Assembly: GCA_019911785.1 (NCBI GenBank)
Contig: JAIOJM010000296.1
Coordinates: forward strand, 1 to 7,574
Origin: Sulfuricella sp.
Lineage (GTDB): Bacteria > Pseudomonadota > Gammaproteobacteria > Burkholderiales > Sulfuricellaceae
Direction: 5' to 3'
Length of the DNA: 7,574 nucleotides
This document shows, piece after piece, positions 1 through 7,258 of the stretch (its first letter is position 1; each line of letters begins with the position of its first letter). The notes beneath the pieces were generated by a model. That model saw only the letters and a program-made list of their open reading frames with translations, searched no databases and was not told the origin of the DNA. The position numbers and the translations under genes are program-made.

Positions 1-792
1 TTCGTATTCTTCGACCAGAATGCGGCGGCGGATGACGAATCATCCAAGTTCCTCAACAACACCTTCGTCCACAACCCGCTGCTGGATTCTGGCGGCGACG
101 CGGGGGTGGATGCCTACGGCTTCACCCCGGGGGTGCGCATCGCCTATCACAACGAGACCGAAAAACCGGAATGGTGGCGGGCATCGCTGGGCATGTTCGG
201 CGCAGGCAGCGGCGCAGGCTACGACCGCACCTTCAGCTCCCCATTCGTCATCGGGCAGCTGGAATTCGGGCGCAAGTTCTTCGGCGGCCTGAATGGAAAC
301 TATCGCCTCTATGCCTGGCGCAACGGCCAGTCAACGGCTTACCAGAATGGGTTCGACACCGCCACCGAACGCCATTCCGGATGGGGCGCGAGCGTCGATC
401 AGCGCGTCGGAGACGCAACAACGGTGTTCGGCCGCTACGGCAAGAGCCTGAACGGCAATGTGCGCTTCGACCAAGCCCTGACGCTGGGCGCGGAATTCGG
501 TGGCAACTACTGGAACCGAGGCGCGGACAGCATCGGCGTGGCATTGGGCTGGCTGCGCACGACCGGGGATTTCCGCGACAACTCCGCAGCGCTGGACACC
601 GACGCCGACGGCAATCCGGATTTCGGCTACACGGCAACGGGCACCGAACAGCTGGCAGAAATCTACTACAGGATCCGCCTCAACAGCAGCCTGGAACTGA
701 CCCCGGACTTCCAGCTGATACGCCATCCCGGCGGCGACAAGACCGCTACGACCGCAAAGGTGTTCGGTTTACGCGCCAAAGCGAGCTTCTGA
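1..792 (+). CDS. OprB-family outer-membrane porin, C-terminal part (5' end outside window)
   Basis: The frame is open from base 1 to a TGA at 790-792, giving 263 visible residues with no start in the window, so the N-terminus is missing. The sequence alternates aromatic/hydrophobic and polar residues in short strands separated by Gly/Asn/Asp-rich turns, as in a beta-barrel. It ends in Phe, the usual last residue of outer-membrane barrels. The C-terminal pattern (Y-R-I/L strand, 'LTPDFQ', 'HPGG', 'GLRA', final F) is what I associate with the OprB/carbohydrate-selective porin family, whose members form passive diffusion channels. A D-x-D-x-D-G-x-x-D loop at visible residues 199-207 resembles a calcium-binding turn. 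It lies 42 bases upstream of an iron-uptake cupredoxin gene in the same direction, so it may be the outer-membrane entry for the metal. The substrate is inferred from context; another solute, or an independent operon, is possible. Confidence 0.75.
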   Translation, partial: FVFFDQNAAADDESSKFLNNTFVHNPLLDSGGDAGVDAYGFTPGVRIAYHNETEKPEWWRASLGMFGAGSGAGYDRTFSSPFVIGQLEFGRKFFGGLNGNYRLYAWRNGQSTAYQNGFDTATERHSGWGASVDQRVGDATTVFGRYGKSLNGNVRFDQALTLGAEFGGNYWNRGADSIGVALGWLRTTGDFRDNSAALDTDADGNPDFGYTATGTEQLAEIYYRIRLNSSLELTPDFQLIRHPGGDKTATTAKVFGLRAKASF

Positions 793-834
793 GCTTGATT
801 AACCACCCATGACCGCAGACCAAGGAAAATCATC

Positions 835-1176
835 ATGAGTATCCTGAAGCTCTTTAACCGCATTGCCACGACCGTCATTTTTACCCTGCCCCCAGCCGCG
901 CTTGCAGAAGACATGCCCACCTTCCAGCTCACCGCGAAGGGCGGGCGCTTTTATCCTGAAACCATCGAAGCACCGGCCGGGAAGAAGTTCAGGATCGCCA
1001 TCAAGAACGAAGGCCCCGGCCCGGAAGAATTCGAGAGCCTCGAGCTTCGGAAGGAAACCGTGCTCGCGCCCGGCGTCACCCGGACATTGGTGTTCGCGCC
1101 AATGAAGCCGGGGATATACAAGTTTTTCGGCGAATTCCACCTGAATACCGCCAAGGGCCAGATCGTCGTCAAGTAG
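835..1176 (+). CDS. ftrB: Periplasmic cupredoxin-like protein, FtrB/EfeO cupredoxin-domain type
   Basis: This 113-residue secreted protein has a signal peptide: a basic N-terminus, a hydrophobic stretch at about residues 10-23, and a likely cut after ALA (residues 22-24). The mature part is one small beta-sandwich of about 89 residues. It has the pattern 'F-Y-P-E-T-I' (39-44), 'P-A-G' (47-49), 'N-E-G-P-G-P-E-E-F-E' (58-67), 'A-P-G-V-T' (78-82), 'P-G-I-Y' (92-95) and 'G-E-F-H' (99-102), ending in a short V-V-K strand. This matches the cupredoxin domain of EfeO and of FtrB in Bordetella-type ferrous uptake systems, proposed to handle copper or oxidise Fe(II) for the permease. There is no Cys and only one His (H102), so the classical blue-copper site is absent. 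AAGGA at 822-826 lies 8 bases before the ATG. The FTR1 permease follows after 9 bases, supporting co-translation. The symbol is given by gene order and domain type. Confidence 0.8.
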   Translation: MSILKLFNRIATTVIFTLPPAALAEDMPTFQLTAKGGRFYPETIEAPAGKKFRIAIKNEGPGPEEFESLELRKETVLAPGVTRTLVFAPMKPGIYKFFGEFHLNTAKGQIVVK

Positions 1177-1185
1177 GAGAAAACA

Positions 1186-2001
1186 GTGGGCAATACGCTA
1201 TTCATCGTCTGGCGCGAAAGCGTCGAAGGCATCCTCGTGGTGGGCATCCTCTATGCTTGGCTCAAATCCCATCCACAAGGCGCGCGCGGCATGCGCTATT
1301 TGTGGGGCGGCGTGGCCGCCGGGCTGGGGCTGGCTGGGCTGCTCGCGCTGGCCATGATGGGGGTATACAGCAGCCTGGACGGCGATGCGCTGGATTATTT
1401 CCAGCTCGGCATGATGCTCGTCGCTGCCGGGCTGATCACCCAGATGGTGTTCTGGATGAGAGAGCACGGCCGCACCCTGAAAAAGGAGCTGGAAACCGGC
1501 CTGGAACGCGCGGCGGGCGAGGCCAACTGGATGGGTGTATCGATCATTGCCATGTTCGCGGTCGGGCGCGAAAGCGCGGAAACCGTGATCTTCCTCTACG
1601 GCAACGGAATGGGGCAGCAAGGCATGGCGTTCGCGCAGTTCCTCGGCGCCGCCGCGCTGGGCTTTGCGTTTGCGCTCCTCACCTTCTGGCTGCTGGTCAA
1701 GGGCGGGCGCACCCTGTCGTGGAAGAACTTCTTCCGCATCAGCGAAACCCTGCTCCTGCTACTTGCCGCCGGGCTGCTGGTCGGCGGGGTGGAAAAAATG
1801 ATCGGCTACGACTGGATTCCGGCATTGGCAGATCCGGTGTGGGATTCCTCCTTTCTGCTCGACGACAACGCAACCGTCGGCAACCTGGTCGCCACGCTCA
1901 CCGGCTACCGCTCCCACCCGGCCCTGACCCTGGTGCTGGCGTATGCCGCCTACTGGGCGCTGGTGCTCGGTTGGCCGCGGTTGCGCAAGCAGGCGACATG
2001 A
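1186..2001 (+). CDS. ftrC: FTR1-family iron permease (FtrC/EfeU-like)
   Basis: This 271-residue integral inner-membrane protein has about seven hydrophobic segments (near residues 13-25, 38-60, 72-91, 116-140, 148-172, 186-204 and 246-264). It carries the two signature R-E-x-x-E motifs of the FTR1/EfeU family: RESVE at 10-14 in the first helix and RESAE at 128-132 in the fourth. In this family these glutamates bind Fe(III) during import coupled to periplasmic oxidation of Fe(II). The length is normal for the bacterial family and both motifs are intact. The start is GTG at 1186, chosen because AGGAG at 1175-1179 sits 6 bases upstream and the RExxE motif is then in its usual position close to the N-terminus. 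It is 9 bases after the cupredoxin stop, and its own stop overlaps the next start (ATGA). The gene order cupredoxin, FTR1, 4Fe-4S membrane protein matches FtrBCD. Family assignment is firm; the ferrous substrate is inferred from the neighbours. Confidence 0.93.
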   Translation: MGNTLFIVWRESVEGILVVGILYAWLKSHPQGARGMRYLWGGVAAGLGLAGLLALAMMGVYSSLDGDALDYFQLGMMLVAAGLITQMVFWMREHGRTLKKELETGLERAAGEANWMGVSIIAMFAVGRESAETVIFLYGNGMGQQGMAFAQFLGAAALGFAFALLTFWLLVKGGRTLSWKNFFRISETLLLLLAAGLLVGGVEKMIGYDWIPALADPVWDSSFLLDDNATVGNLVATLTGYRSHPALTLVLAYAAYWALVLGWPRLRKQAT

Positions 2002-2522
2002 ACGCGATTGTTTTAACGCCAGATTGGGGCAGCCCAATCAGTCCGGAACCGGATCGAGGCACGTGCCTGCTCTGCGCCATCGTCGGAATGTTGGCAGCGG
2101 CGATGACGCTGGCAGTGCTGGCCAAGATGCTGTTCCTCGCCCCTGCCGGCCCAACCGTGCTGCCCCTCGACGAAACTTGCAGCCTCAGCCGGGAAACCTG
2201 CTCCGTGCGCCTACCGGACGGCGGAACGCTGAAATTTTCCATCGGCCCACACCCTGTTCCACTGCTCCAGACGCTGACACTCGAAATCCGCATCTCCGAC
2301 AGCGATGCGCACCCGGTAGAAGTCGGTTTTACCGGTGTGAACGTACCTATGGCTTTCAACCGCACTTATCCCACGCCCGCTACCGACGGGGCTTATACCG
2401 CTCAAACCACGCTGCCTCTTTGTGCTTCCGGTCACATGGTTTGGCAAGCATCCGTGCTGCTGGAAAAAGGCGATGACCGCCTTCTTGTCCCGTTCCGCTT
2501 CGAAACCGAACGTGGCGCATAA
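1998..2522 (+). CDS. Single-pass membrane protein with periplasmic beta domain, unknown function (FixH/YtkA-like fold possible)
   Basis: I do not recognise this 174-residue protein with certainty. The ATG at 1998 overlaps the permease stop in an ATGA junction, so the two are probably translationally coupled. The frame is open well upstream, but that part lies wholly inside the permease gene. The N-terminal 22 residues are polar, residues 23-48 form one transmembrane helix, and the rest should be periplasmic. The soluble part has a Cys pair (C61, C68), a third Cys (C142), M118, and a strand pattern 'G-A-Y-T-A-Q-T-T-L-P' then 'H-M-V-W-Q-A-S-V' near 131-153. It ends in a 'F-R-F' strand. This resembles the immunoglobulin-like fold of FixH or YtkA-type domains, but that is an impression from pattern. 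Because it sits between FtrC and FtrD homologues, it may help assemble the iron transporter or deliver metal to it. The FtrD-like gene starts 16 bases later. Confidence 0.75.
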   Translation: MNAIVLTPDWGSPISPEPDRGTCLLCAIVGMLAAAMTLAVLAKMLFLAPAGPTVLPLDETCSLSRETCSVRLPDGGTLKFSIGPHPVPLLQTLTLEIRISDSDAHPVEVGFTGVNVPMAFNRTYPTPATDGAYTAQTTLPLCASGHMVWQASVLLEKGDDRLLVPFRFETERGA

Positions 2523-2538
2523 CAGAATGAGATAAATC

Positions 2539-3951
2539 ATGAAAATGGAACAACCGATATTCTTCCACCCCATGCCGCCGCTCCCCGCTTCGCGCCTGCA
2601 GCGCCTGGGTGACGCCATGAGGCGCAACCGCTGTCTCATCATCAGCGTGCAATGGGCGGTGGTGGTTTTCTACCTGGCGCTGGTGACGGTGCCGGCCTTT
2701 CTTCCCCTGCCGGGGACTGGTTCCAGCGTGCTGAACAACCTCACCCTGCTCGCCCAGTTCATGTTCTGGGGCATCTGGTGGCCGTTCGTGATCATTTCCA
2801 CGCTCGCTTTGGGACGGGTGTGGTGCGGTGTCTTCTGCCCGGAAGGCACGCTCACCGAACTCGCCAGCCGCCACGGCCTGGGCCGTCCGGTGCCGCGCTG
2901 GCTGAAGTGGGGCGGCTGGCCGTTCGCCGCCTTCGTCATCACCACGGTGTACGGGCAGTTGGTGAGCGTCTACGAATACCCCAAGGCCGTTCTGCTGGTG
3001 CTGGGCGGCTCCACCGTCGCCGCCGTCGCCGTCGGCTTCGTCTACGGCAAGGGCAAGCGCGTCTGGTGCCGCCACCTGTGCCCGGTCTCCGGCGTGTTCG
3101 CCCTGCTCGCCCGGCTAGCACCGGTGCATTTCAGGGTGGACCGCGAAAAATGGGATGCCGCCGCGACGACCCATCCAGCGCCGGTCGACTGCGCCCCACT
3201 GATTGACATACGGCGTATGAAAAGCGGCTCGCAGTGCCACATGTGCGGACGCTGCAGCGGGCACCGCGACGCCGTCGCCCTCGCCCCGCGCCTGCCGGGC
3301 GCCGAGATCGCCAGCCTGAAACCCGCCGAGGCCGGCGCGTGGGAAGCCCGGCTCTTGGTGTTCGGCATCATCGGCACGGCGGTGGGCGCGTTCCAGTGGT
3401 CGTCCTCCCCCTGGTTCGTGGCGATCAAGACCCGCGTTGCCGAATGGCTGATCGAACGCGATTCCTTCGCCCTGCTCCAGGACAACGCGCCCTGGTGGCT
3501 GCTGACCCACTACCCGGAAGCCAATGACGTGTTCACTTGGCTCGATGGCCTCGGCGTTCTCGCCTACATCGGCACCACCGCGCTGATCCTGGGCGGCTGG
3601 ATCACCCTCTGGCTGCGCCTCGCCGGCGCGCTGCTGCCGGGCAGCATGAAGCAGAGCGGGCGATGGCTCGCCTATGCCCTCATCCCGCTGGGCGGGCTGG
3701 GCGTGTTCCTCGGGCTGTCATCCCTTACCGTCACCCTGCTCAAGGCCGAGGGCGTCATCATGCCCTGGCTACCCGAGGTGCGCGGAGCGCTGCTGGCCCT
3801 GGCTGCACTGTGGAGCCTGTGGCTCGGCGGGCGCATGCTGTTCGCCCTGCCCGGCGCGTCCCGCGTGGCAAGACTGACGGCGCTGGCCTGCCTGACTACG
3901 GCCATCGGAGGTGTCGTGCTACCGTGGGTCTTCCTGTTTTATATATGGTAG
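2539..3951 (+). CDS. ftrD: Polytopic 4Fe-4S membrane protein, FtrD / NapH-NosR-CcoG superfamily
   Basis: This 470-residue inner-membrane protein has helices near residues 32-56, 68-90, 125-145, 149-170, 272-286, 336-359, 376-400, 414-436 and 446-468. Two W-C-x-x-x-C-P motifs (C96/C100 and C177/C181) are the paired CxxxCP signatures of the NapH/NosR/CcoG superfamily, which passes electrons across or along the membrane. A loop after the fourth helix carries C218 and then C233-x2-C236-x2-C239, enough for one [4Fe-4S] cluster. The usual second C-x2-C-x2-C-x3-C-P ferredoxin motif is absent. FTR1-linked homologues such as FtrD are thought to transfer electrons for ferrous iron import. The position directly behind FTR1 fits this, although the electron path is not established. 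The ATG at 2539 has only a weak GAG-containing Shine-Dalgarno (2529-2531); a second ATG follows two codons later at 2545. It is the last gene of this operon. Confidence 0.87.
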   Translation: MKMEQPIFFHPMPPLPASRLQRLGDAMRRNRCLIISVQWAVVVFYLALVTVPAFLPLPGTGSSVLNNLTLLAQFMFWGIWWPFVIISTLALGRVWCGVFCPEGTLTELASRHGLGRPVPRWLKWGGWPFAAFVITTVYGQLVSVYEYPKAVLLVLGGSTVAAVAVGFVYGKGKRVWCRHLCPVSGVFALLARLAPVHFRVDREKWDAAATTHPAPVDCAPLIDIRRMKSGSQCHMCGRCSGHRDAVALAPRLPGAEIASLKPAEAGAWEARLLVFGIIGTAVGAFQWSSSPWFVAIKTRVAEWLIERDSFALLQDNAPWWLLTHYPEANDVFTWLDGLGVLAYIGTTALILGGWITLWLRLAGALLPGSMKQSGRWLAYALIPLGGLGVFLGLSSLTVTLLKAEGVIMPWLPEVRGALLALAALWSLWLGGRMLFALPGASRVARLTALACLTTAIGGVVLPWVFLFYIW

Positions 3952-4048
3952 CAATCAATTCATTTCCGCATTGAGCCTGACTGGTCCCGGACTTTGCGGT
4001 GCAATCCGATCAATAGTTTTTTCCTATCACCGCGTTTTAAAAAAACAA

Positions 4049-4148: not shown

Positions 4149-4568
4149 ATGCAACTTAAAGGCAGCAAAACCGAGCAGCACCTGAAAGACGCCTTCGCCG
4201 GCGAATCCCAGGCCAACCGCCGTTATCTCTATTTCGCATCCAAGGCTGACGTGGAAGGCTACAACGACGTAGCCGCCCTGTTCCGTTCCACTGCCGAAGG
4301 CGAAACCGGCCACGCCCATGGCCACCTGGAGTATCTGGAGCAGTGCGGCGACCCAGCCACCGGCCTGCCCTTCGGCCCCACGGCGGACAACCTGAAGACC
4401 GCGGTGGCGGGCGAAACCCACGAGTACACCGATATGTACCCGGGCATGGCCAAGACCGCCCGCGAAGAAGACTTCGACGAGATTGCCGACTGGTTCGAGA
4501 CCCTGGCCAAGGCGGAGCGTTCCCACGCCAACCGCTACCAGAAGGCCCTGAACGAATTCGGCGGCTAA
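4149..4568 (+). CDS. Rubrerythrin (diiron, ferritin-like), lacking the rubredoxin domain
   Basis: This 139-residue protein is a single four-helix ferritin-like domain. All seven ligands of the rubrerythrin diiron site can be placed: E19, E52 with H55 (E-x2-H), E89 with E92 (E-x2-E), and E123 with H126 (E-x2-H). Rubrerythrins reduce hydrogen peroxide to water in the cytoplasm and so protect against oxidative stress. Classical members have a C-terminal rubredoxin domain with two CxxC pairs that feeds electrons to the diiron centre. Here the protein stops after the helix bundle and has one Cys (C66), so it needs an external donor. The Fe-S protein encoded 68 bases downstream is the obvious candidate. 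The ATG at 4149 is preceded by a strong AGGAG. It appears to be the first gene of a five-gene operon. Family and ligands are seen directly; peroxidase activity is known of the family; the donor is inferred. Confidence 0.93.
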
Positions 4569-4579
4569 ACGGCAGCATC

Positions 4580-4601
4580 CCGGCCACTGAAAGGTGGCCG
4601 G
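4580..4601 (+). other. Perfect 8-bp GC hairpin between rubrerythrin and Fe-S protein genes
   Basis: CCGGCCAC (4580-4587) pairs perfectly with GTGGCCGG (4594-4601) around a six-base loop. No T-run follows (the next bases are ATTTCACC), so it is not a standard intrinsic terminator. It begins 11 bases after the rubrerythrin stop and ends 22 bases before the next Shine-Dalgarno. It could protect the 3' end of a processed rubrerythrin message, allowing more rubrerythrin than the downstream proteins, or attenuate transcription. The function is inferred. Confidence 0.5.
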
Positions 4602-4615
4602 ATTTCACCATATCC

Positions 4616-4627
4616 ACTGGAACAGGA
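4616..4627 (+). repeat. 12-base direct repeat, copy 1, overlapping the Shine-Dalgarno of the Fe-S gene
   Basis: ACTGGAACAGGA here is identical to 5979-5990. In both places it leads into the Shine-Dalgarno of the gene that follows. The AGGAG used by the Fe-S gene is at 4624-4628, 8 bases before the ATG at 4637. This supports that start over an in-frame extension back into rubrerythrin. Confidence 0.6.
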
Positions 4628-4636
4628 GAACCCACC

Positions 4637-5971
4637 ATGGCCGGCCCCGCCCGCGAAGGCAACCTGGAAGCACCCACCCGCCACCCCCTGGATTGGCGGA
4701 ACCCGGATTTCTATGCCGAGGAATCTTTGTTCAAGGAACTGGAACGGGTCTTCGACATCTGTCACGGCTGCCGCCGCTGCATCAGCCTGTGCCAGTCTTT
4801 TCCCACCCTGTTCGATCTGGTGGACGAGTCCGACACCATGGAAGTGGATGGCGTAAAAAAATCGGATTACTGGCAGGTCGTGGATCACTGCTATCTGTGC
4901 GACCTGTGTTACATGACCAAGTGCCCCTACGTGCCGCCCCACGAGTGGAACCTGGATTTTCCCCACCTCATGCTGCGGGCCAAGGCCGTCAAATTCAAGA
5001 AGGGCGACATCAAGACCCGCGACCGCATCCTTACCAGCACCGATGCAGTCGGCAATCTGGCCGGCATCCCGGTGGTGGCCCAAGTGGTCAACGCGGCCAA
5101 CAGGTTCGGCCCGGCACGCAAGGTGCTGGAGGCGGTGCTGGGTGTGCATGCGGATGCCAAACTGCCCGAGTACCACAGCAACACCCTGCGCAAGCGCCTT
5201 TCCGGCCATCAAAGCGATGCCAAGCCTGAGCCCGCCGGAAAAACCAGGGGCCAAGTGGCCATCTTTGCCACCTGTTACATGAACCGCAACGAACCCGGCC
5301 CCGGCGAGGATTTCGTCGCCGTTTACGAACACAACGGCATCCCGGTAACACTGGCGGAAAAGGAGCGCTGCTGCGGCATGCCCAAGCTGGAACTGGGCGA
5401 CCTGGAAGCAGTGGCGGCGGCCAAGGAACACAACATCCCCATGCTGGCCAGGCTGGTGGACGCAGGTTGGGACCTCACCGCCCTGATCCCCTCCTGTGTG
5501 CTGATGTTCAAGCAGGAACTGCCGCTGATGTTCCCGGACGATGCGGAGGTGCAGAAGGTGAAAGAAACCTTCTACGACCCTTTCGAATACCTGATGCTGC
5601 GCCACAAGGAAGGCAAGCTGAAGACCGATTTCAAGCAGCCGCTGGGCAAGGTCGCCTACCATGCCGCCTGCCATCAGCGGGTGCAGAATATCGGACAGAA
5701 GACGCGCGAGGCCCTGTCCTTGGTGCCCGACACCACGGTGGAGATCATCGAGCGCTGCTCCGGCCACGACGGCACCTATGCGGTAAAAAAAGAGTTCCAC
5801 GCCTACGCCATGAAAATCGTCAAGCCGGTGGTGGAGCGGGTGAAGAAAGCCGAGGCGGCGCACTATGGCAGCGATTGCGCCATGGCCGGCCATCACATCG
5901 AGAACGGCCTGAAGGATGGCCGCGCGCCGGAACACCCGATCACCTTGCTGCGCAAGGCCTACGGCATCTGA
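4637..5971 (+). CDS. GlpC/HdrD-like Fe-S protein with two [4Fe-4S] motifs and two CCG-type domains
   Basis: This 444-residue protein has no evident signal peptide or membrane helix, so it is probably cytoplasmic. Two ferredoxin-type motifs lie near the N-terminus: C42-x2-C45-x2-C48-x3-C52 and C85-x2-C88-x2-C91-x3-C96-P. Two cysteine-rich domains of the heterodisulfide-reductase/GlpC type follow. The first has C213, C245-C246-G and C287. The second has C345, then C374-S375-G376 where CCG is expected, and C414. Neither C-terminal Cys has the full CxxC partner (C287-x2-M290, C414-x2-A417). Relatives (GlpC, HdrD, glycolate and lactate oxidase subunits) carry electrons between a partner enzyme and a quinone or another cluster. 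No catalytic glycerol-3-phosphate dehydrogenase gene is nearby. Between rubrerythrin and DUF3501, a role as reductase or electron donor of the rubrerythrin is plausible. AGGAG at 4624-4628 supports the start at 4637. Confidence 0.9.
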   Translation: MAGPAREGNLEAPTRHPLDWRNPDFYAEESLFKELERVFDICHGCRRCISLCQSFPTLFDLVDESDTMEVDGVKKSDYWQVVDHCYLCDLCYMTKCPYVPPHEWNLDFPHLMLRAKAVKFKKGDIKTRDRILTSTDAVGNLAGIPVVAQVVNAANRFGPARKVLEAVLGVHADAKLPEYHSNTLRKRLSGHQSDAKPEPAGKTRGQVAIFATCYMNRNEPGPGEDFVAVYEHNGIPVTLAEKERCCGMPKLELGDLEAVAAAKEHNIPMLARLVDAGWDLTALIPSCVLMFKQELPLMFPDDAEVQKVKETFYDPFEYLMLRHKEGKLKTDFKQPLGKVAYHAACHQRVQNIGQKTREALSLVPDTTVEIIERCSGHDGTYAVKKEFHAYAMKIVKPVVERVKKAEAAHYGSDCAMAGHHIENGLKDGRAPEHPITLLRKAYGI

Positions 5972-5978
5972 TCTGAGT

Positions 5979-5990
5979 ACTGGAACAGGA
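5979..5990 (+). repeat. 12-base direct repeat, copy 2, overlapping the Shine-Dalgarno of the DUF3501 gene
   Basis: ACTGGAACAGGA is identical to 4616-4627. It runs into an extended purine-rich Shine-Dalgarno (AGGAAGGAAG, 5987-5996) ending 6 bases before the ATG at 6003. That site decides the DUF3501 start, because the frame is also open upstream inside the Fe-S gene. Confidence 0.6.
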
Positions 5991-6002
5991 AGGAAGACGA
6001 CC

Positions 6003-6581
6003 ATGCAACTGACCCATGACAAACTCTACAGCCTGGAGCAATATGCCCGCATCCGTCCCGATTTCCGCGCCAAGGTGATGGAACACAAGAAGCATCGCCG
6101 GGTGCAGATCGGCGACCATGCCGCCCTCTATTTCGAGGACGCCCTCACCATGCAGTACCAGGTGCAGGAAATGCTGCGCCTGGAACGCATCTTCGAGCCG
6201 GAAGGCATACAGGATGAGTTGGATGTCTACAACCCGCTGATTCCAGACGGCAGCAACTGGAAGGCCACCTTCATGGTGGAGTACGAGGACGAGGCGGAAC
6301 GGAAACAGGCTCTGGCTCATCTCATCGGCGTTGAAAAAACAGTATGGGTGCAGGCAGAGGGATTCGGCAAGGTTTACCCCATCGCCAACGAGGATCTTGA
6401 CAGAGAAACCGAAGACAAGACCGCCTCGGTGCACTTTTTGCGCTTCGAACTTACCCCGGAGATGGTCACTGCGGTCAAGCAGTGCGCGACCGTGCGGGCT
6501 GGCATCGAACACCCTGTCTACCGCGAGGAGGCGGAATTACCACCGCAGGTGCGCGATTCGCTGGCCGGTGATTTGATTTAA
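6003..6581 (+). CDS. DUF3501 family protein, unknown function
   Basis: This 192-residue protein has no signal peptide or membrane helix. I recognise it as DUF3501 from its overall sequence: an N-terminal 'D-x-L-x-S-L-E-x-Y' start, an R/K/H-rich stretch at about 24-33, 'L-Y-F-E-D' followed by 'M-Q-Y-Q-V-Q-E-M' at about 40-56, and 'Y-N-P-L-I-P' with 'W-K-A-T' near 77-90. Acidic and His residues are frequent and there is one Cys (near position 159), so it is unlikely to bind an Fe-S cluster itself. No biochemical function is known to me. In my recollection DUF3501 genes tend to sit beside rubrerythrin and GlpC-like Fe-S genes, as here, which suggests a dedicated partner or assembly factor. It is 31 bases behind the Fe-S gene and is followed almost without a gap by the haem-protein gene. 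The first residues (M-Q-L) and the bases around the start are the same as in rubrerythrin. Confidence 0.88.
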   Translation: MQLTHDKLYSLEQYARIRPDFRAKVMEHKKHRRVQIGDHAALYFEDALTMQYQVQEMLRLERIFEPEGIQDELDVYNPLIPDGSNWKATFMVEYEDEAERKQALAHLIGVEKTVWVQAEGFGKVYPIANEDLDRETEDKTASVHFLRFELTPEMVTAVKQCATVRAGIEHPVYREEAELPPQVRDSLAGDLI

Positions 6582-6583
6582 GT

Positions 6584-7258
6584 GTGATGCCACCGATGGG
6601 GATGGTGCGAGCCATAGCGGTTGCCGTCGTGGGGTTGGCTTATGCGCAGATGGGCGCGGCAGAAGTGTCTCGGGCAACGGCGGTAAAGTTCAACACCGTG
6701 TGCACCCGCTGTCATGAGGGTGAGTGTAGCGGGCGCCTGAGCTTTTCTTCCGGCGTTGCGGCTACCCGCAGTCATGTGCGGCGCTACCTCCCCTCTTCTT
6801 CTTCCCTGGAGGTGGAGGAGCTTTTCGCCATCCTCAAGTACACCAAGGAACTCTGCGCCCATTACCCCCTGCCGGACGCCATCCCCGCCGATGGCGTGTG
6901 GGGTGCGGAAGCATTGCGGCAGTGGCGAAGCCCTGAGGGCGAGAGCTACTTCATCCCTTTGGGCAGAATGCGCCCGGGAGTCTATCACCTGGGCTTGCGC
7001 TTTGACGGGAAGGCGGAAGCGAGCGTGCGCATCACCAACGAAAAATTTGACGTGCTGCTGGAAGAGCAACAGTGCAAAGATCAGGCATGTGACTGGACCC
7101 TGCCGGTCGCCGCTGAAGCATTTTATTACCTCCACCTCAAGTCCAGTGCGACGTTGCTGGGTCTGACCCTCTCGCCAGTGGGATTGCACGTTCCTGCCGC
7201 CTTTACTCCTTCCATTAATTCCTGCGTAGCTGAAAAGGTGAGAGCATGGGTTCCCTGA
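6584..7258 (+). CDS. Exported mono-haem c-type protein with C-terminal beta domain, unrecognised family
   Basis: This protein is about 224 residues from the GTG at 6584. ATG at 6587, 6596 or 6602 are equally possible starts and none has a good Shine-Dalgarno. The 2-5 base gap to the DUF3501 stop suggests translational coupling. An N-terminal hydrophobic segment (about residues 8-26) ending in small residues is a signal peptide. One C-T-R-C-H motif (40-44) is a covalent haem c attachment site, with an extra Cys four residues later (C48). Residues 70-92 are a Ser-rich linker and short helix. Residues 118-205 look like a small beta-sandwich, with 'F-I-P-L-G', 'R-P-G-V-Y-H-L' and 'Y-Y-L-H-L' strands. 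Cysteines C91, C164, C169 and C214 may form disulfides. H64 or a Met could be the distal haem ligand; this is not determined. I do not know this family. It would be periplasmic, unlike its cytoplasmic operon neighbours. Confidence 0.75.
   Translation: MMPPMGMVRAIAVAVVGLAYAQMGAAEVSRATAVKFNTVCTRCHEGECSGRLSFSSGVAATRSHVRRYLPSSSSLEVEELFAILKYTKELCAHYPLPDAIPADGVWGAEALRQWRSPEGESYFIPLGRMRPGVYHLGLRFDGKAEASVRITNEKFDVLLEEQQCKDQACDWTLPVAAEAFYYLHLKSSATLLGLTLSPVGLHVPAAFTPSINSCVAEKVRAWVP
7235..7242 (+). promoter_or_regulatory. Internal ribosome binding site inside the haem-protein gene
   Basis: AAGGTGAG lies just before the ATG at 7246 and inside the last codons of the haem-protein gene. The downstream gene overlaps by 13 bases, in another frame. 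The site decides the start of the aminotransferase and implies coupled translation. Confidence 0.6.

Follow-up and report, generated by a model that had tools for sequence, protein, structure and literature searches.

The closest described relative of the genes considered here is the aerobic-type rubrerythrin system, published in 2016 by Cardenas, Quatrini and Holmes (PMC5114695). It joins a rubredoxin-less rubrerythrin (RBR), a GlpC-like Fe-S protein named RFO, and a DUF3501 protein; all three were present in 185 of that paper's 4461 genomes. The trio can be broken: in 25 organisms of the same paper RBR and DUF3501 occur and RFO does not, in one DUF3501 and RFO have no association with RBR, and one more has DUF3501 by itself. 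RFO was proposed to compensate for the lost rubredoxin domain; the paper settled neither what DUF3501 does nor how electrons reach a rubredoxin-less rubrerythrin in organisms that have no RFO.

The trio is also reported from a hot-spring metagenome and Sideroxydans (PMC7852563), from Acidihalobacter (PMC7760498), and from jakobid mitochondria (PMC7050145), and is reported to be absent from euglenozoans (PMC12699882); its presence in the mitochondria of some protists adds to its relevance. Among rubredoxin-less rubrerythrins, ferriperoxin of Hydrogenobacter thermophilus is a peroxidase, required for aerobic growth as judged by a mutant (PMC3317640), and sulerythrin has been termed a likely peroxide reducer (PMC12851003).

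The window, a stretch of 7,574 nucleotides from a Sulfuricella sp. contig, contains this known system, which is well confirmed here. An initial annotation had taken the three genes for an undescribed system; the trio, its co-occurrence, and the name RFO had all been published in 2016, which makes the find itself an ordinary one.

The three genes and their products

The features discussed below are as follows.

4013..4027, no strand assigned: putative OxyR-like operator half-site, ATAG-N7-CTAT (presumed consensus)
4149..4568, + strand: RBR, an aerobic-type rubrerythrin without a rubredoxin domain, 139 aa (ATG 4149, TAA 4568)
4637..5971, + strand: RFO, the Fe-S protein, 444 aa (ATG 4637, TGA 5971)
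6003..6581, + strand: DUF3501 (PF12007) protein, 192 aa (ATG 6003, TAA 6581)

Start and stop codons of all three genes were verified on the sequence, and the gaps are 68 bp between RBR and RFO and 31 bp between RFO and DUF3501. This upholds the initial description of a rubredoxin-less rubrerythrin followed, on one strand and at short distances, by an Fe-S gene and a DUF3501 gene. The nearest named matches of the three proteins, among the best 120 of 8000 for each, are mostly Sulfuricella proteins; identity to Sulfuricella sp. T08 is 97% for RBR, 95% for RFO, and 80% for DUF3501.

RBR matches PF02915 (E 2.7e-29) and, besides that, only PF00210; no rubredoxin domain was matched in the Pfam search. 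The seven diiron ligands, E19, E52, H55, E89, E92, E123, and H126, whose positions we assume from classical rubrerythrin, do not vary across an alignment of 10 sequences that includes the window's, in line with the earlier claim of a full ligand set. The protein is closest to 4di0 (E 9e-75) and 9onm (E 8.1e-75), with sulerythrin 1j30 at E 6.7e-51 and classical rubrerythrin 1b71 farther away at E 1.2e-26. As a candidate member of the classical rubrerythrin family NF045767 it reached 134.5 of 200 bits, below the equivalog cut-off. Both 4di0 and 1j30 are members of the aerobic-type group (PMC5114695), and RBR has the makeup of that group: a diiron domain, no rubredoxin domain, and greater closeness to 4di0 and 1j30 than to 1b71. 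The genes linked to it, for DUF3501 and for a COG0247 protein (RFO), are those of the aerobic-type system.

PF02754 (CCG) matches RFO over two stretches (E 3.2e-11), and a 4Fe-4S dicluster profile scores 18.8 bits, under its cut-off of 22.2. An alignment of 13 sequences, among them the window's and with identities as low as 40%, shows no change at any of the 15 motif cysteines of RFO. They form two ferredoxin-type motifs (C42 C45 C48 C52 and C85 C88 C91 C96) and two CCG-type sets (C213 C245 C246 C287 and C345 C374 C414). The HdrB cluster presumably has five cysteines, and because both CCG sets fall short of that number, the cluster types of RFO are uncertain. The predicted model (pLDDT 77.9) matches the fold of LutA 9a6l, EtfD 9ojn, and HdrB chains. 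GlpC, a subunit of anaerobic glycerol-3-phosphate dehydrogenase, was tried as an identity for RFO and rejected, the scores of 225.6 of 278 and 147.7 of 279.9 bits lying below the NCBIfam equivalog cut-offs.

The DUF3501 protein belongs clearly to PF12007 (E 4.5e-75; 252.2 bits versus a curated cut-off of 25). Its predicted model (pLDDT 92.4) has a sole strong match, the solved structure 3fjv, deposited as a protein of unknown function. No cysteine was found among the invariant or nearly invariant alignment columns, making a role as a Cys-ligated electron carrier unlikely.

Co-occurrence across genomes

With RFO as the query, the best 80 of 518 loci encoding a relative were kept, and in 78 of them RBR, RFO, and DUF3501 follow one another in that order on one strand. 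One exception (L009) is a contig that starts 54 bp ahead of RFO. In the other (L010), DUF3501 was not found between RFO and the contig end; a catalase-peroxidase (katG) reading frame (L010:7190-8059) starts 18 bp past the RFO stop, in the usual place of DUF3501.

Since these loci had been picked by their similarity to RFO, an even draw of 299 Pseudomonadota genomes was added; this is the phylum of Sulfuricella sp. T08, which was included by choice as a trio genome. DUF3501 is present in 17 of the 299 genomes, full-length RFO at 42% identity or more in 17 (next best match, 31%), and RBR at 78% or more in 17 (next best 54%, in G257, and then 53% or less). The carriers are the same 17 genomes for all three (16 of 298 without T08), and order and strand are constant in every one (16 genome stretches and the T08 locus, L001). 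None of the three was found alone at family-level similarity among the 299 genomes.

The initial annotation had looked to the co-occurrence of DUF3501 with rubrerythrin and the Fe-S family as the measure of its proposal that the three genes form one module. That survey has now been run, all 17 genomes carry the trio, and the module is borne out by the shared order here and in the 78 loci. The opposite pattern, DUF3501 and the Fe-S gene usually occurring without rubrerythrin, is not what the 299 genomes show, given that the same 17 carry all three. For DUF3501 as a dedicated partner, the support is one of association.

Two putative operator types upstream of RBR

From 80 loci, 16 genome stretches, and the window, 97 sequences in all, we took the 250 bp 5′ of RBR; five loci with no RBR or too little room were left out, which leaves 92. 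A perfect half-site ATAG-N7-CTAT, which we take to belong to the OxyR consensus, was present in 44 of the 92, compared to 3 of 3055 other 250-bp bins, the loci being related and the counts therefore not independent. The background was 0.41% in shuffles and 0.97% in 5161 chunks, with true sites included in the latter. The window's candidate site (4013-4027) is perfect and, continued through 4049 (the next 22 bases), agrees at 14 of 20 positions with what we take to be the tetrameric OxyR consensus. Among 44 distinct half-site segments the spacers vary, and downstream columns fitting a second half-site, including CAAT, are conserved.

In 20 of the 92 upstream regions (e.g., L031, L035, and L098) there is a perfect copy of a second, palindromic box, TTTAGA-N5-TCTAAA, which none of the 3055 other bins contains; we take its geometry to be that of Irr/ICE iron-box sites. 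It and the OxyR half-site are practically mutually exclusive. In the 75 usable loci of the 80, there were 38 with the half-site, 22 with the second box (one position relaxed), and none with both; one upstream region (L109) combines the half-site with a weak second-box match (10 of 12). A perfect half-site is missing from 48 of the 92, and 17 have neither box when second-box matches of at least 10 of 12 are counted. An OxyR-like LysR gene lies in 29 of the 75 loci, 22 with the half-site, 7 without it, and none with the second box; the 46 loci without such a gene include 16 with the half-site and 22 with the second box. Four LysR proteins from trio loci and a fifth from the second T08 cluster (L115, described below) were tested; OxyR was the best match of each, at a score under its cut-off.

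Irr boxes are reported 5′ of rubrerythrin-like and bacterioferritin genes in alphaproteobacteria (PMC3413700), and the Sideroxydans trio is reported with an OxyR gene (PMC7852563). The available text of PMC5114695 makes no mention of OxyR, of promoters or regulation, or of EncFtn, encapsulin, or ferredoxin. Neither the two-operator pattern nor the link to EncFtn-like ferritin described below was found in the literature searched, most of it outside subscription papers, and we regard the two operator types and this ferritin as modest additions to the known system. The operator survey makes “probably oxidative stress” a testable regulatory claim.

Rubredoxins and neighboring genes

Rubredoxin (PF00301) was detected in 12 of the 17 trio genomes and not detected in 5, all of unstated completeness; the latter include G149, in which the trio contig alone is 5.44 Mb. 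In another set, the genomes of ten loci, 7 had a rubredoxin. Sulfuricella sp. T08 has a second cluster (L115:1469-4482) with an OxyR-like regulator, a second rubrerythrin, a rubredoxin, and a reductase with a rubredoxin-binding domain; this is its single detected rubredoxin, and the trio is on another contig. These results weaken, and do not close, the possibility raised at the outset that a rubredoxin encoded elsewhere is the only functional donor. For a route of electrons that needs no rubredoxin, the five trio genomes in which none was detected are natural cases to test.

An EncFtn-like ferritin is encoded inside or beside the trio in 14 of the 80 loci, 10 times between RFO and DUF3501 and 4 times after DUF3501; of the 17 trio genomes in the even draw, 2 have it within their trio. 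The proteins (e.g., L001:9370-9642) are roughly 90 to 97 aa where the start is clear, PF22277 was matched in two tested, and no obvious C-terminal encapsulation tail was found. An encapsulin shell protein (PF04454) is encoded in one of four genomes carrying the ferritin, that of T08. There is no EncFtn-like gene in the window, though its near relative L001 has one. In L014, RFO is separated from the EncFtn-like gene by an inserted Uma2-family (PF05685) reading frame (L014:9333-9947).

Positions 1-3951 of the window encode the end of an OprB porin, a cupredoxin, an FTR1/EfeU-like permease, an unnamed protein, and a NapH-like Fe-S membrane protein. We take this to resemble an iron uptake cluster of the FtrABCD type; it is found upstream in the same arrangement in 1 of the 80 loci (L019). 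On the other side of the trio lie a secreted-looking protein (6587-7258) with a CXXCH heme motif, for which no Pfam or NCBIfam match was found, and then a HisC-like aminotransferase; both are also found 3′ of DUF3501 in L001.

Discussion

The reading that we favor, with a probability of about three in four for the whole, is that of a peroxide-reducing RBR with RFO as its electron donor, DUF3501 in docking or assembly, and control of the OxyR type. On this view the diiron center of RBR would be the site where H2O2, and probably also organic hydroperoxides, are reduced, as has been shown for a relative in the literature. RFO, as a GlpC/LutA/HdrB-like chain with two [4Fe-4S]-type and two CCG-type sites, would be fed by a cellular donor and would re-reduce RBR, which has no rubredoxin domain of its own. 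DUF3501 would most likely be a docking or assembly partner of both, and transcription of the operon may be peroxide controlled through the putative OxyR-type operator 5′ of RBR. The supply of electrons from the Fe-S protein to the rubredoxin-less RBR, put forward in the initial annotation, is still the best inference, and PMC5114695 infers likewise.

This reading is supported by the three-way co-occurrence with constant order and strand (17 of 17 genomes and 78 of 80 loci), by the peroxidase activity of ferriperoxin, by the OxyR half-sites and OxyR-like genes, by the katG frame of L010, and by the 5 of 17 genomes without a detected rubredoxin. It also draws support from the proteins themselves, RBR being nearest to 4di0, 9onm, and 1j30 and RFO combining 15 invariant cysteines with a LutA/EtfD/HdrB fold. 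It is weakened by the 48 of 92 upstream regions without a perfect half-site and the 17 with neither box, by the lack of a half-site in 7 of the 29 loci where an OxyR-like gene lies, by the rubredoxin of 12 of the 17 trio genomes, and by CCG sets without the fifth cysteine that we presume for HdrB. The reduction of ferriperoxin by NADPH and FNR without RFO (PMC3317640) and the published exceptions to the trio (PMC5114695) weigh in the same direction.

The latter observations could mean that RBR is a peroxidase served by a general donor (FNR/ferredoxin, rubredoxin, or a flavoprotein), with RFO and DUF3501 assembling, repairing, or protecting the diiron center, or with RFO as a separate quinone-linked stress enzyme. 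Activity of ferriperoxin in vitro with NADPH and FNR (PMC3317640), the 25 organisms with RBR and DUF3501 and no RFO (PMC5114695), the rubredoxin of the 12 trio genomes, and the lack of a conserved cysteine in DUF3501 would all fit. We consider such an arrangement unlikely, given that the three families occur together and in order in 17 of 17 genomes, that five of these have no rubredoxin match, and that the one rubredoxin detected in T08 has partners of its own, a second rubrerythrin and a reductase, away from the trio contig. That the three genes are merely accidental neighbors is contradicted by the 78 of 80 loci and all 17 genomes in which they are linked, and with no supporting point found we give this practically no credence.

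The initial annotation had also cautioned that the substrate need not be peroxide. This keeps some force; the putative OxyR-type operators 5′ of the trio favor peroxide. Were the trio instead an O2- or iron-handling diiron system (an oxidase, a ferroxidase, or an iron detoxification system), one might point to the 14 of 80 loci whose trio contains or adjoins an EncFtn-like ferritin gene, to the second operator type in 20 of 92 upstream regions, presumably of Irr/ICE-like geometry, and to the iron-uptake genes directly upstream in the window, although the same arrangement recurs in only 1 of the 80 loci. Diiron sulerythrin does react with O2 (PMC12851003), but ferriperoxin has peroxidase activity (PMC3317640). 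With OxyR half-sites in 44 of 92 upstream regions, OxyR-like genes in the loci, and katG as the neighbor in L010, a substrate other than mainly peroxide seems rather improbable, more so than a general donor.

Returning to the peroxide-reducing trio with RFO as donor, one can envision, quite tentatively, that RFO and DUF3501 make up a module replacing rubredoxin. DUF3501 would clamp RFO on the RBR dimer, and peroxide reduction in the cytosol would be driven by electrons that quinol or a flavoprotein supplies on the respiratory side, as for the GlpC and EtfD relatives. The operon might then be switched between operators of the OxyR type and of the Fur-family type (Irr/PerR-like), and an unencapsulated EncFtn-like ferritin might be recruited in some lineages for iron released under peroxide stress.

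Compared with known systems, the window's RBR shares its diiron ferritin-like domain with classical rubrerythrin but lacks the rubredoxin domain and has a separate Fe-S partner. Ferriperoxin and sulerythrin are rubredoxin-less like it, and the donor tested for ferriperoxin was NADPH/FNR (PMC3317640). RFO has the ferredoxin-type motifs and CCG domains of the GlpC/LutA/HdrB-type Fe-S proteins, while it scores under the GlpC cut-offs and has RBR as its gene neighbor. The aerobic-type rubrerythrin system (PMC5114695) has the same three families, the same linkage, a rubredoxin-less RBR, and a GlpC-like Fe-S protein, and from it the window, with its putative OxyR-type half-site and without an EncFtn-like gene, differs in nothing that defines the system.
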